A stretch of DNA of 64,000 nt from an uncultured Clostridia bacterium (lineage in GTDB: Bacteria; Bacillota; Clostridia; Christensenellales; Borkfalkiaceae). Where the stretch lies: positions 58,096 through 122,095 of the forward strand of contig CANRHB010000003.1 of NCBI GenBank assembly GCA_947630325.1, in the 5' to 3' direction. The position numbers were made by a program, and so were the translations under genes. How positions within the stretch are numbered: position 1 is the first letter of the stretch; the number at the start of each line of letters is the position of its first letter. Below, one piece after another: positions 1,679 to 64,000 of the stretch. The notes below the pieces were generated by a model. That model saw only the letters and a program-made list of their open reading frames with translations, searched no databases and was not told the DNA's origin.

Positions 1679-1924
1679 GTCATTTCGACCAAGCCGCTAT
1701 GCGGCGCGTGGAGAAATCTCGCCCTATTATAATTACGTCACCCTGAGCGAAGTCGAAGGGTGTCCGCATTGTAATAAGGACATGTTTCGACTTCGCTCAA
1801 CATGACGTATTTTAGAAATGCGGTAGAGATTTCAACTTCGTCGCAGGCTCCTCGTGCCGCCCTTAGACAACATAGAACGTGCGGGCGGGGCGACACGCCT
1901 CGTTCCTCGGCGGCTCGAAATGAC
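1679..1924. repeat. Family C element carrying a nested family D element
   Basis: The ends are the perfect inverted repeat GTCATTTCGA (1679-1688) and TCGAAATGAC (1915-1924). The interior has the family's GAGAAATCTC motif, the family D copy at 1735-1808, and a segment (about 1845-1905) shared with the C element at 4209-4365. Removing the D copy restores a typical C element. Confidence 0.8.
1735..1808 (+). repeat. Family D element, short form, inserted in a C element
   Basis: Core ends are ACGTCACCCTGAGC and GCTCAACATGACGT, imperfect inverted repeats of each other. The middle has the family signature GTCGAAGGGTGTCCGCATT followed by AAGGACATGT. It lacks the extra 60-bp insert seen in the copies at 32820 and 54092. 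Confidence 0.8.
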
Positions 1925-3993: not shown

Positions 3994-4463
3994 TTTTTAT
4001 TTTTCTCCTTTTTTGGATTTTTTTGAAATGAGGTGGCCCCCTCCCCTACCCCTCCCCCGCTTTGCGGGGGAGGGCGAGTAAGAGGAGTTTCTTCCCAACA
4101 AGTTGGGGAAGCGAAGAAAAGGGGTTCTCAAAAAACCCTTTCCCCCGCTTCGCGGGTACTTTCCCTGTAAGGGACAGCAAGGGAAATACGCAAACACATT
4201 CCCCAAATGTCATTTCGAGCCGCCGAGGAACGAGGCGTGTCGAGAAATCTCTACCTCATTTTTATAATGTAAGATTTCTCCACTCCGCCTGCGGCTTGGT
4301 ACTTCGTCGCAGGCTCCTCGTGCCGCCCTTAGACAACATAGAACGTGCGGGCGGGGCGGAATGACGCACAGGCGGGGAGAGTTTGCCCACCCCCTTAGTC
4401 CCCCTCCAATGGAGGGGGTTTTGTTTGCCCCTCCGTGGGAGGGGGTAAAATGAGGTAAATGGG
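3994..4463. repeat. Intergenic repeat mosaic 2
   Basis: No gene is supported in this gap between ferritin and ntpD. It contains a family B hairpin (about 4027-4077), a family F hairpin (4132-4180), a family C element (4209-4365) and two family A hairpins (about 4380-4447). Confidence 0.8.
4209..4365. repeat. Family C element
   Basis: It starts with GTCATTTCGA and ends with GGAATGAC, so the right end is degraded. The interior has CGAGAAATCTC and AGATTTCTC, plus the segment about GGCTCCTCGTGCCGCCCTTAG that recurs in families D and E. Confidence 0.75.
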
Positions 4464-23662: not shown

Positions 23663-24272
23663 CAAGAGACACGCCCCTTTAGTCCCCCTCCAATGGAGGG
23701 GGTTTTGCTTGCCCTGCCTGCGCCATTCCGAGCCGCGTCGGCCATGCGTCATTCCGAGCCTTGGCACCCCTGTAGGGGAGCTGTCGCGCCCTGCGCGACT
23801 GAGGGGTTCTCCGAAAGCCTACTAAAACCCTTTCCCCCGCTTCGCGGGTACTTTCCCTAAAAGGGACAGCAAGCCCACCCCCTTAGTCCCCCTCCAATGG
23901 AGGGGGTTTTGCTTGCTCTTGACCGCAGGAGGGGGTTTTACTTGCCCTGCCTGCGCCATTCCGAGCCTTGGCGCCCCTGTAGGGGAGCTGTCGCGCCCCG
24001 CGCGACTGAGGGGTTCTCCGAAAGCCTATTAAAACCCTTTCCCCCGCTTCGCGGGTACTTTCCCTAAAAGGGACAGCAAGAGCCCCCACCTGTCTCGCTC
24101 CGCTCGCCACCCGCCCCCATAAGTGGGGGCAGGTCTGCCCACCCCCTTAGTCCCCCTCCAATGGAGGGGGTTTTGCTTGCTCTTGACCGCAGGAGGGGGT
24201 TTTGCTTGCCCCGCCGACGCGCGTTGCGCGTCGGCGGGGCATTTTTGGGAAGTTTTCCACATACAATCAAGC
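23663..24272. repeat. Intergenic repeat mosaic 4 with duplicated composite block
   Basis: No gene. Family A hairpins occur at about 23676-23712, 23873-23945 and 24138-24211. A composite of family G plus family F (CTGTAGGGGAGCTGTCGCGCC... to ...AAAAGGGACAGCAAG) is present twice in the same direction: about 23751-23872 and 23958-24080, nearly identical. The same composite occurs inverted at 54411-54522. The end (24210-24245) is a further GC stem. Confidence 0.85.
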
Positions 24273-32636: not shown

Positions 32637-33039
32637 AGTGTTTTTGTTTAATAAGGCGAGATTTCTCGATTCCGCTTCGCTCCACTCGAAATGACAATTA
32701 GAAGCGCGAGGTGAAATGACAAAATTAAGGGACAGCTAAGGAACCCTTTCCCCCTCGCTTCGCTCGGGTACTTTCCCTAAAAGGGACAGCAAGAGGAAGC
32801 GGAACATCGTTCTTAAATTACGTCACCCTGAGCTCCGTCGAAGGGTGTCCGCATTATAATGAGGACATGTTAACTTCGCTACGCTCGTGCCGCGCTTAGA
32901 GAAACAGAACTGCGCGCGGGGCGACTCCACTGCGTTCCGCTCAACATGACGTGATTTAAGGGACATCGCCGCCCCACCCCCTTGGTCCCCCTCCCACGGA
33001 GGGGGTTCCGTTGCACGCGGTTTCGCTAAGAAAGTAGGC
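32637..33039. repeat. Intergenic repeat mosaic 5
   Basis: No gene. Contents: a C-like fragment (about 32655-32697), a family F hairpin (about 32742-32792), a full family D element (32810-32962) and a family A hairpin (about 32972-33013). Confidence 0.8.
32810..32962 (+). repeat. Family D element, long form
   Basis: The core ends ACGTCACCCTGAGC and GCTCAACATGACGT are at 32820 and 32952. It carries a 60-bp insert (CTCGTGCCGCGCTTAGAG and CGCGCGGGGCG motifs), absent from the short D copy at 1735. Flanks TTAAATT and GATTTAA extend the inverted repeat. Confidence 0.8.
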
Positions 33040-37164: not shown

Positions 37165-37842
37165 AAGTTCACGAAAAATCTTTTGCTGGCGCAAAATCTT
37201 TTTCCGTGAGGAAATTGGCGTTTGCGCCTTAACTTATAATTATCCTCTTATTCGTTTCATCGGACAAGAAGTTGCAAGTATGCAACAAATGTTGTCGCGC
37301 AGCGCAAAAGCGTGGTTTTGCTCGCGCACGTGATTTAGAACACGCCCCACCCCCCTACCCCCTCCCACGGAGGGGGCAAGAAAGAGGGAACTCCATGAAG
37401 GGGCGTAAACCCCGCGCCGACTGAACCCCCTCCACCGGAGGGGGACTAAGGGGGTGGGCAAACACCCGCGTGTGGGCGCGTCATTCCGCCCCGCCCGCAG
37501 TTCTTATTCTCTAAGGGCGGCACGAGGAGCGCCAGCGACGAAGTAGCCGTAACGGAAATAACGAAGTTCGATACGGCAATTCCCCGAGGGAATCTTGCTA
37601 CGTCCAAGTACGATTAAAACCAAACCCAAACGCACCAAGATGCCTTCGCGGACTTACTAACGGGACTGCGTAAGCACATTAACGGCTCAGCATGACGCTT
37701 TGAAGAAGCCCGTTTGCCGCCCCTACCCCCCCCTCCTAAGGAGGGGCAAGCGAACCCGAGATAACGGAACCCCCTCCTCGGGAGGGGGGCGGAAAAGAGC
37801 GACGGGCGAATAGGTTTATGAGGGATGCGCATACTGCGTTGT
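37165..37842. repeat. Intergenic repeat mosaic 6
   Basis: No credible gene. It contains a solitary D terminus (CACGTGATTTAGAA, about 37327-37342), family A hairpins (about 37343-37459 and 37713-37790) and a full family E element (37478-37698). Confidence 0.8.
37478..37698. repeat. Family E element
   Basis: It starts with GCGTCATTCCG and ends CTCAGCATGACGC, so the outer 7 bp are inverted repeats. Inside are GAGGGAATCTTG, an AACCAAACCCAAACG tract, CCAAGATGCCTTCGCGGAC and CTAACGGGACTG, all shared with 56889-57107 and 63530-63683. Confidence 0.75.
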
Positions 37843-53593: not shown

Positions 53594-53893
53594 ATGGGGA
53601 AAGAAATTTCTAAGAACCGAATAAAAGAACTGCGAGAAGATAGAGATTTGCGACAAATTGACGTGGCTCATGCGACAGGAATTGACCAGCGATCCCTTTC
53701 CAACTACGAAACGGGAAAGACCTTGCCCGACAGCTATGCGATCATTCGTCTTGCCGAATTTTTCGGCGTCACCTGCGATTATCTGCTCGGCGTGAGCGAG
53801 CGCGACTTAAAAGACACGACCGCCGTGATAGATGAGTTGGAGGAAGTGAGAAACAGGCTAAGCGAAATACAGAAATTCCTCAACAAAAAATAA
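53594..53893 (+). CDS. XRE-family transcriptional regulator
   Basis: A 99-residue protein: HTH domain (about 8-65) with Arg-Gln-Ile-Asp-Val-Ala-His-Ala-Thr-Gly-Ile-Asp-Gln-Arg-Ser-Leu-Ser-Asn-Tyr-Glu as the recognition part, then a short helical tail with Leu-Glu-Glu-Val-Arg-Asn-Arg-Leu for dimers. It is the prophage/ICE repressor type. Its mRNA is nearly leaderless, and its promoter is interlocked with that of the coiled-coil gene. Followed by a strong terminator. Confidence 0.92.
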   Translation: MGKEISKNRIKELREDRDLRQIDVAHATGIDQRSLSNYETGKTLPDSYAIIRLAEFFGVTCDYLLGVSERDLKDTTAVIDELEEVRNRLSEIQKFLNKK

Positions 53894-53897
53894 TCAT

Positions 53898-53945
53898 AAA
53901 CGCCGCGCCGCCGAAAATTTCGGCGGCGCGGCGTTTTGTTTTAGA
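53898..53945 (+). terminator. Terminator of the second XRE gene
   Basis: A stem of about 18 bp (AAACGCCGCGCCGCCGAAA with its complement, 53898-53937), then TTTTGTTTT. Confidence 0.9.
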
Positions 53946-54082
53946 AATGTGTAGGTTTAGTAAGCCCACCCCCTTAATCCCCCTCCAATGGAGGGGGTTC
54001 CGTTGAGAGCGGGGTTCGCTCCTTCCGTGGAAGTGCCGCTTACATGCCCCCTCCGTGGGAGGGGGTAGGGGGGTGGGGCGTG

Positions 54083-54236
54083 TTCTAAATCACGTCATGT
54101 TGAGCGGAACGCAGTGGATTCGCCCCGCGCGCTGTTCTGTTTCTCTAAGCGCGGCACGAGCCACAAGGCGAAGTTAACATGTCCTTATTATAATGCGGAC
54201 ACCCTTCGACGGAGCTCAGGGTGACGTAATTTAGAA
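54083..54236 (-). repeat. Family D element, long form, inverted
   Basis: Its ends, TTCTAAATCACGTCA and TGACGTAATTTAGAA, are inverted repeats in 14 of 15 positions, the best defined copy. The interior matches 32820-32952 on the opposite strand. Confidence 0.88.
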
Positions 54237-54269
54237 CGGCGTTCCGTTCTCCCTTACTGTTCTGATTAT

Positions 54270-54351
54270 GTCATTTCGACCAAGCGTAGCGCGTGGAGAA
54301 ATCTCACATTGTTGTAATAAGGTAGAGATTTCTCGACAAGCTCGAAATGAC
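54270..54351. repeat. Family C element, minimal
   Basis: An 82-bp unit bounded by GTCATTTCGA and TCGAAATGAC, with inner inverted GAGAAATCTC and GAGATTTCTC. The whole copy can fold on itself. It is the shortest complete C copy. Confidence 0.85.
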
Positions 54352-54410
54352 ATTTAAGAATGTTGCCCACCCCCTTAGTCCCCCTCCAATTGAGGGGGTT
54401 TCTCTTTCCT

Positions 54411-54522
54411 CTTGCTGTCCCTTTTAGGGAAAGTACCCGCGAAGCGGGGGAAAGGGTTTTAATAGGCTCTCGGAGAACCCTTCAGTCACCTGCGGTGACA
54501 GCTCCCCTACAAGGGGAGCCAA
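54411..54522 (-). repeat. Composite F+G repeat, inverted copy
   Basis: It matches, on the other strand, the two direct copies at about 23751-23872 and 23958-24080, including the linker around GGTTCTCCGA...AGCCTATTAAAACCC. Confidence 0.8.
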
Positions 54523-56856: not shown

Positions 56857-57150
56857 GGTTGTTTTTGTTTTTTTTGGGGGGAGTGGGGGCGTCATGCTGC
56901 CCCGCGCGCAGTTCTGATTCTCTAAGCGCGGCACGAGGAGCCTGCGACGAAGTAGCCGAAATGTATTTACGCAGTTCGTGAAAGAAAGTCTGCGAAGGCA
57001 TCTTGGTACGTTTGGGTTTGGTTTTGAACGTACCTTAACGTAACAAGATTCCCTCGGGAAATTGCCGTGTCGGACTTCGTTATTCCCTTTACGGCTCGGA
57101 ATGACGCGATTCGCGCGGGAAGGAATGACGCAGGGCAAAGCGGGGAAAAA
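56857..57150. repeat. Intergenic repeat mosaic 8, between prmA and rsmE
   Basis: Nearly the entire gap is a family E element (56889-57107). It splits the usual prmA-rsmE pair. Confidence 0.8.
56889..57107. repeat. Family E element, inverted relative to 37478
   Basis: Ends GCGTCATGCTG and CGGAATGACGC are inverted in the outer 7 bp. The inside includes GGCATCTTGGTACG, an AACGT-rich middle and GATTCCCTCGG. Confidence 0.75.
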
Positions 57151-63194: not shown

Positions 63195-63441
63195 TCTTTT
63201 CCTCCTTATCATGCGGAAACAGTCCGCTCCCTGTGCCGTTATTATAGCGCAAAAACCCGAAATTGTAAATAGACTTCCGAAAAATATTTTTCAGAGCCCT
63301 CGGCGCGGAGCGAATGACAAATTAGAACAAAGAACACCACCCCCCCCCTACCCCCTTCCTAAGGAGGGGGCACGTAAACGGGATCCGCGCAAAACCCCCG
63401 CCATTGGAGGGGAACTAAGGGGGTGGGCGCATTTCTAAAAC

Positions 63442-63510
63442 ACGTCTTAGCGAAGTTGAGGAATGTCCTGTTTATAATGCGGACACCCTTCGACAAGCTC
63501 AGGGTGACGT
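63442..63510 (-). repeat. Family D element, short, damaged left end
   Basis: The right end is intact (GGGTGACGTATTTAGAA); the left end has ACGTCT instead of ACGTCA. It has the signature TATAATGCGGACACCCTTCG. Confidence 0.7.
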
Positions 63511-63529
63511 ATTTAGAATACACCGTCCC

Positions 63530-63683
63530 GCGTCATTCCGAGCCGCACAAGCGGTTACGAAGTCCGAAATGGAAAGTCTCCGAGGGAATCTTGTTGCGTT
63601 CAAAACCAAACATAAACGTACCAAGATGCCTTCGCGGACTTTCTAACGGGACTGTGTAAACACATTTCGGCTCAGCATGACGC
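63530..63683. repeat. Family E element, 154 bp, with partial second copy
   Basis: Ends GCGTCATTCCG and CAGCATGACGC. It is followed immediately by a second partial copy to 63832 sharing CCAAGATGCCTTCGCGGAC and ending again in CAGCATGACGC. Confidence 0.75.
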
Positions 63684-64000
63684 AGGGCATACGTTCAAAA
63701 CCAAACCCAAACGTACCAAGATGCCTTCGCGGACTTTCTAACGGGACTGTGTAAACACATTTCGGCTACTTCGTCGCAGGCTCCTCGTGCCGCGCTTAGA
63801 GAATCAGAACTGCGCGCGGGGCAGCATGACGCTTAAAAGAGCCTTATCGCCGCCCCACACCCCTACCCCTCTCCCACGGAGAGGGTAAATAGAACCCCCT
63901 CCTGCGGAGGGGGTTGAATGAGATTGGGTGAATTATACTAACAAGTGCAACGGGTGGGATAAAAAAAGTAGTTCAAACGGAAGTCTGTGATATAATAGAG

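Follow-up and report, generated by a model that had tools for sequence, protein, structure and literature searches.

Family D, a set of short palindromic repeats in an uncultured Clostridia genome, is probably a non-autonomous member of the REP class of repeats. Each D copy would represent a heterodimer of CGTC hairpins with the tags directed outward, a conserved core and an end repeat of about 15 bp, and would spread by the steps proposed below. The copies described are from the window, which is the whole 64,000-nt stretch of DNA analysed, from the remainder of the genome that contains it (the own genome) and from related genomes.

Copies of D in the window and the own genome

The original prediction gave four copies of a MITE-like element with 15-bp terminal inverted repeats. 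The four copies are real, but with corrected bounds of 1726–1817, 32811–32961, 54083–54236 and 63433–63519. The copy at 1726–1817 (forward strand) has no insert and consists of a CCCT arm at 1739–1762, a core at 1763–1780 and a TGTT arm at 1781–1804; it scores 109.8 bits with model R1. The copy at 32811–32961, also on the forward strand, has its CCCT arm at 32824–32847, its core at 32848–32865 and its TGTT arm at 32866–32948, and this last arm carries a 50-bp module, termed T, at 32872–32921 (forward strand). The copy at 54083–54236 is on the reverse strand, with the CCCT arm on the right side (54200–54223), the core at 54182–54199 and a TGTT arm at 54096–54181 that carries a 53-bp T at 54123–54175 (reverse strand). 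Both of its 15-bp ends are intact and it is the sole copy in which both are free of mismatches; the predicted terminal repeats are correct for this copy, and elsewhere the outermost bases vary. The copy at 63433–63519 (reverse strand) is decayed. Its CCCT arm (63484–63506) and core (63466–63483) are present, and part of the other arm is lost, leaving a truncated TTCC arm that ends GGAATG at 63460–63465. The lone end predicted near 37327–37342 was found at 37326–37340 on the reverse strand in an end search that allowed mismatches; it has 2 mismatches and is joined to a C-rich module.

The D end TTCTAAATnACGTCA, with up to 2 mismatches, is found 6 times in the window vs 0.31 expected by shuffling. 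The 1.97-Mb draft genome has 97 occurrences vs 7 for a reversed control. A search of the own genome with a covariance model built from 33 D copies gave 122 matches at E ≤ 0.001 (150 candidates scored). Merged by hand, these correspond to 85 separate places, of which 57 reach E ≤ 1e-11; the weaker matches include a sister family, E. D is therefore more abundant than the four copies of the prediction. A Pfam scan of nine window proteins showed no transposase. Beside the copy at 54083, a 99-aa open reading frame (53594–53893) resembles, by eye, an XRE-type helix-turn-helix regulator.

Anatomy and predicted fold

A D copy consists of two hairpin arms tagged CGTC, tags outward, around a short core. 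Starting on the CCCT side, the order in a short copy is end (TTCTAAATn), ACGTC, arm 1, core, arm 2, GACGT, end. Arm 1 is A CCCT, the loop GAGCnnnGTCGA and AGGG T; the core is GTCC, GCATTATAATAA and GGAC; arm 2 is A TGTT or A TTCC, the loop TCGACnnnGCTC and then the complement. The arm stem is 5 bp and the loop 11–12 nt, and the core stem follows the arm directly with no CCA tail.

A wider alignment comprises 26 D copies from 13 genomes (own, G023, G006, G003, G013, G025, G032, G064, G066, G067, G073, G083 and G193). Columns 11–14, the CGTC tag ahead of arm 1, and 80–83, the complement of the tag following arm 2, are invariant in 26/26 rows. Stem position 1 is A-T in all 26 rows in both arms, and position 2 of arm 1 is C-G in 21 rows and T-A in 5. 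The outer bases are the least conserved part of D, while the inner arms covary. The tags do not pair with their own arms; they pair with each other in the proposed outer stem.

The fold tested is a four-way junction of 23 pairs, in which this outer stem and three arms meet and no base is left unpaired at the crossing. Standard pairs are present in 96.3% of 598 cells of the 26-copy set, and sliding the partner by 1–3 columns reduces pairing to 25–47%. Both sides change in 11 of the 23 pairs vs 7.0 in shuffled alignments (1/500 as high), and the covariation score is 0.327 vs 0.123 (0/500 as high). In all, 60 cells are changed on both sides vs 17.1 shuffled, although these represent fewer events than cells, as the paired changes are those of a few stem types common to many copies. 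A closer group of 33 copies, for which the same fold was drawn slightly differently, is 97.4% paired and has 40 both-side cells vs 12.9 shuffled, but displays no excess of pairs changed on both sides (5 vs 4.1, 110/500 as high) or of further pair types (9 vs 10.8), and it is the wider set that carries the covariation test. Local pairing within each arm is kept through paired changes.

Folding D as one long hairpin leaves 86.4% paired in the 33-copy set, with the unpaired positions mostly at the arm stems. The covariation alignment supports the predicted four-way junction, whereas the energy model prefers one long hairpin: as DNA, four copies give −20.3 to −25.8 kcal/mol for the long bubbled hairpin vs −9.4 to −13.8 kcal/mol for the junction, and the long hairpin is likewise preferred as RNA. 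Single-stranded D could form a junction of outer stem ACGTC/GACGT, arm 1 (A+CCCT), core GTCC..GGAC and arm 2 (A+TGTT or TTCC) with no unpaired base at the crossing.

Unequal arms

The two arms of D differ in every copy examined. Among 33 copies found by their ends, equal stems are present in none vs 8.8 expected. A search on the CCCT arm and core that left the second arm free gave 72 distinct copies; CCCT is never the second arm (0/72), which is TGTT in 42, TTCC in 24 and another stem in 6. The cross-species set has ten arm-stem combinations with equal arms in 0/26, and here TCCT is the first arm in some copies and the second in others. The 72-, 33- and 26-copy sets overlap in part, and the CCCT arm is nearly fixed in the group of the own genome, G023 and G006, where the absence of equal arms partly reflects subfamily structure.

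Unequal arms are not universal among such pairs, since a copy of sister family E, at 54260–54360 on the reverse strand, has a TTTC stem on both arms with different loops (stems assigned by eye). This copy has a TGTC tag and is a weak match to the D model (E = 0.00036). When the arms of four D copies were made equal in silico, all four became near-perfect palindromes, with −36.6 to −44.1 kcal/mol as DNA, compared with −20.3 to −25.8 for the natural copies. Unequal arms may keep D from becoming a near-perfect long palindrome, which would be open to removal by replication or by SbcCD-type nucleases.

The T module

The two long copies in the window were predicted to share a 60-bp insert. The inserts are of the same kind and in the same arm, but measure 50 and 53 bp and are copies of T, which is a separate repeat of about 50–57 bp found in hairpins. 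The common form starts ACTTCG and ends GCGGGG, and sits between T and C (T^C) at the stem-loop border. In a set of 50 occurrences, many of them in sequences chosen for nearness to D and with flanks inspected for 41, 42 are assigned by rule, from their flanks, to an arm or a related hairpin, with five classes represented; the remaining 8 look by eye like altered arms. The hosts include arms of several stem types, family E and a different family with arms ending GCATGACGC. T-related sequence is also found elsewhere in the window, at 1835–1892, 4301–4358 and 63768–63825.

An orthologous D shows the arm with and without T. In Lapin-020__bin18 (CANQWX) L201 and Lapin-030__bin27 (CANRND) L230, the arm lacks T in one genome and carries it in the other, where a T of 57 bp is flanked by GCGCT and CAGGG. 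The T-bearing site also contains a repeated 24-nt stretch of the neighbouring end, and is thus not a perfectly clean filled site.

Gene context and distribution

The location of D relative to genes was determined with gene calls from a home-made codon-bias script. Of the 72 copies, 43 could be placed between called genes, 35 unidirectional, 8 convergent and 0 divergent; 28 others are unplaced and 1 overlaps a weak gene call. By comparison, 16 of 81 gaps of at least 100 bp in 262 kb of own contigs are divergent. By simple arithmetic, with the background from the own genome only, the chance of 0/43 is about 1e-4.

An exact search of a species-genome collection for the 19-base core gave at least 80 loci. 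Of those listed, from which the own genome is possibly absent, 79 are from uncultured Clostridia MAGs named 'Lapin', rabbit going by the name, and the D-bearing genus is apparently gut-dwelling. A match in an Actinobacteria MAG (L254) has no D anatomy and was rejected. The exact core pattern is absent from viral contigs, and carriage of D by phage was set aside on this result.

In the genus, D-model matches are found in 36 of 65 genomes, own included: 27 have at least 15 matches (termed D-rich), 9 have 1–12 and 29 have none. These counts are rough, with at most 66 candidates scored per genome and both strands counted. Across the order, matches at E ≤ 1e-6 are present in 9 of 200 genomes, with 21 candidates scored each. 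Four of these, own included, are in the genus; the five outside it have 1–6 matches with E-values of 3e-11 to 5e-7, and their core looks different by eye.

D content shifts fast between related species. G003 has 62 matches beside G007 with 1 and G019 with none. A one-protein tree of 30 rows (from 41 genomes; 11 rows D-rich) requires 8 changes vs a shuffled mean of 9.1 (149/500 as low), with at least 4 D-rich changes forced by well-supported branches alone.

Orthologous places

Twenty D loci whose left and right flanks both had matches gave 33 comparisons, one overlapping duplicate having been removed from 34 rows; a few of them are the same pair seen from both sides. All are between species, and movement itself is unseen. 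Counting model matches down to about E = 2e-6, a D-type match is present in the other genome in 15 comparisons and lacking in 18; one of the 18, own C2:87242 vs G023 L228, shows two weaker matches of about 1e-5. At nine of the 20 loci, one relative or more has no D. In some relatives the island is missing: at C2:87242 there are 508 bp between the matched flanks vs 0 bp in Lapin-023__bin67 L208, and at the window locus 32811 there are 440 bp vs 88 in G064. In other relatives a different mosaic occupies the same gap.

Some D copies are old, since a copy is common to Lapin-020__bin18 L190 and G023 L223 at the same place and in the same direction. At two orthologous places (own C3:112178 vs G023 C34; own C2:117158 vs G023 L196) the polarity of D is opposite, which may represent inversion or independent insertion. 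Inversion in situ was suspected at these loci but was not retained, as independent insertion of a common subfamily also fits and, by eye, polarity is preserved in most orthologous pairs.

Candidate movers and alternative explanations

Bacterial MITEs are short, non-coding and patchy, with a terminal inverted repeat and a target duplication. D is likewise short, non-coding, dispersed and patchy in the genus, has a terminal inverted repeat and commonly shows D-free orthologous gaps. The predicted look of a non-autonomous mobile element is retained to this extent, but not as the usual MITE. A target duplication, sought in the flanks as the original prediction suggested, gave no signal in 71 copies, where the mean direct flank repeat is 2.65 vs 2.64 shuffled; five of these copies have direct flank repeats of 5 to 8 nt. 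By eye, most facing D ends in the own genome are separated by about 80–330 bp. Wider pairs of D-like ends are found at C7:44907/47636 (2.7 kb) and C8:32148/37440 (5.3 kb), the C7:44907 end starting a short repeat of its own. These two pairs aside, no autonomous element with D ends was recognised by eye among end pairs of the own genome, a draft assembly. D has the anatomy of a pair of inverted REP hairpins around a core, with the structured interior as the conserved part, rather than that of transposase-binding ends around filler. A classical MITE, with ends bound by the DDE transposase of an IS that has the same terminal repeat, is thus judged very unlikely, given the lack of target duplications and the anatomy.

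The search for movers covered the presence of three families, Y1, IS110 and RVT_1, in drafts that are 63–99% complete. Y1 transposases are the family of the RAYT and IS200 enzymes. D could be a REPIN mobilised by such an enzyme, with the transposase lost or in unassembled parts, and Y1 genes are present in 15 of 61 genomes of the genus. The layout of two inverted REPs and a spacer also fits what is given for REPINs in the accessible parts of Bertels and Rainey (2011; PMC3116915). However, the own genome has no Y1, the tags are CGTC and not GTAG, and the association is in the wrong direction: 3 of 23 D-rich genomes carry Y1, which is absent from the other 20, vs 12 of 38 others. A Y1-moved REPIN is unlikely on these counts, as is a RAYT/IS200 enzyme as the mover in all carriers. 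IS110 was considered because the Neisseria repeat dRS3 is a target of phage integrase. It passes the cut-off in 4 of 65 genomes (1 of 27 D-rich, 3 of 38 others), with weak matches below the cut-off in 8 more, none D-rich, and was rejected as mover with a single D-rich genome over the cut-off. Reverse transcriptase (RVT_1) is present in 5 of 26 genomes, 3 of 13 D-rich and 2 of 13 D-poor, and was rejected as it shows no link to D content.

D may have no enzyme of its own, the copying and arm exchange arising from replication template switching or from recombination between palindromes of intergenic islands. Nested partial units such as repeated TTCTAAATTACGTCACCCTGCCCCGCC runs, the recurrence of arms, T and neighbouring modules across several families, and the opposite polarity at two orthologous places are in keeping with this. 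Complete copies with full ends at many unrelated loci are not, nor is the polarity kept in most D/D orthologous pairs compared by eye, and this explanation, although conceivable, is doubtful. The copies might instead be conserved RNA structures under host selection, as stabilisers of mRNA 3′ ends or terminators, given the covarying stems and the lack of copies between divergent genes. Yet copies are often not kept at orthologous places and 29 of 65 genus genomes have no match. Rfam yields no family at gathering scores in the window, by which a known RNA family was rejected, and two sub-threshold matches in 53900–54500. An RNA function of this kind appears highly improbable.

The favoured explanation, the heterodimeric REP-class repeat, would have D spreading without target duplication into DNA between unidirectional or convergent genes, where its copies are located. 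The spreading activity probably acts on single strands. No Y1, IS110 or RT enzyme widespread among these drafts is expected to be the mover, the presence of each family having been tested. The arms would also house the second repeat, T, at T^C on the stem-loop border. We put forward tentatively, as a possibility, that these are four-way-junction DNA elements that spread without RAYT/Y1 and whose arms are kept unequal while the stems change between species. They could depend on an undescribed junction- or hairpin-specific enzyme or replication process and serve as a landing pad for a hairpin-seeking T.

Relation to known repeats

The accessible parts of Di Nocera et al. (2013; PMC3733652) describe REPs tagged CGTC or TGTC that are mostly head-head dimers, often heterodimers, are situated downstream of genes and apparently lack a dedicated transposase. 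The stem there is 8–9 bp with A-T in positions 1 and 2, the loop is 4–5 nt and the unpaired tail is mostly CCA. D similarly has a CGTC tag next to the stem, an A-T first stem pair, a head-head heterodimeric form (equal stems 0/72 and 0/26), a conserved spacer with complementary ends as in their head-head dimers, and a location between unidirectional and convergent genes; D may also lack a dedicated transposase, so far as the three families searched for presence show. In contrast to those REPs as described in these parts, D has a 5-bp stem, an 11–12-nt loop, C-G or T-A at stem position 2 of arm 1, no CCA tail and an outer conserved end, TTCTAAATnA. D is classed here as working like a CGTC REP heterodimer and not as a member of families CGTC-1 to 4, because stem and loop length and the CCA tail differ.

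Neisseria dRS3 is filed as CGTC-1 in the same accessible parts. The portions of PMC3898611 available describe dRS3/NIME arrays in intergenic mosaics with other repeats, and the dRS3 units as 20 bp, ATTCCC(N8)GGGAAT. D resembles dRS3, so far as these portions describe it, in having short CGTC-type inverted repeats amid other repeats in intergenic mosaics, and differs in forming heterodimers with a core and many stem types. In the available text of Bertels and Rainey, REPINs go with RAYT genes and have spacings of 71 or 110 bp. D is also extragenic and composed of two inverted REPs and a spacer, but its arms differ in the stem and most D carriers have no Y1.

The word 'Firmicutes' does not occur in PMC3733652, and the RepRanger paper of 2025 (PMC12306157), in its accessible parts, gives putative REP counts for three Bacillota species and contains no 'clostridi' string. 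A literature search that included parts of these two papers, with subscription papers mostly out of reach, did not find family D in print. The heterodimer preference of most REP families had 'no obvious explanation' in the accessible parts of the 2013 paper. Within the D genus, the copy number reaches dozens per genome in some species, with a wide range of stem types, and falls to few or zero in related ones. Both the heterodimer rule and the identity of the mover of these repeats become testable there.

Neighbouring repeat modules

Truncated ends TTCTAAATnACGTCACCCTGCCCCGCC are found ahead of full D copies at L026 1501–1561, L162 566–720 and L037 1501–1540. They join near the word TTCTA, which is also present in T, and are possible template-switch products.

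A C-rich palindromic module (CCCACCCCCTTAGTCCCCCTCCAATGGAGGGGGTT) is present in the window as 9 copies in register, at 1624–1986, 4383–4432, 23667–24184, 32970–33019, 53962–54011 and 54363–54412. It is joined several times to a D end, with ...GGGGCGTG|TTCTAAAT as the junction. Another palindromic family (GCGTCATTCCGAGCC ... GGCTCAGCATGACGC), at 37545–37658, 56983–57108 and 63529–63767, also carries T in its arms. Two further hairpin modules, CCCTTTCCCCCGC..GGGACAGCAAG and CCCCTCAGTC..GACAGCTCCCC, are situated at 4132–4186, 23797–24082, 32744–32793 and 54406–54487, and one copy of the latter carries T at T^CGAC. The region 23745–24087 is a mosaic repeated at 207-bp spacing, with two 136-nt copies that are 95% identical.
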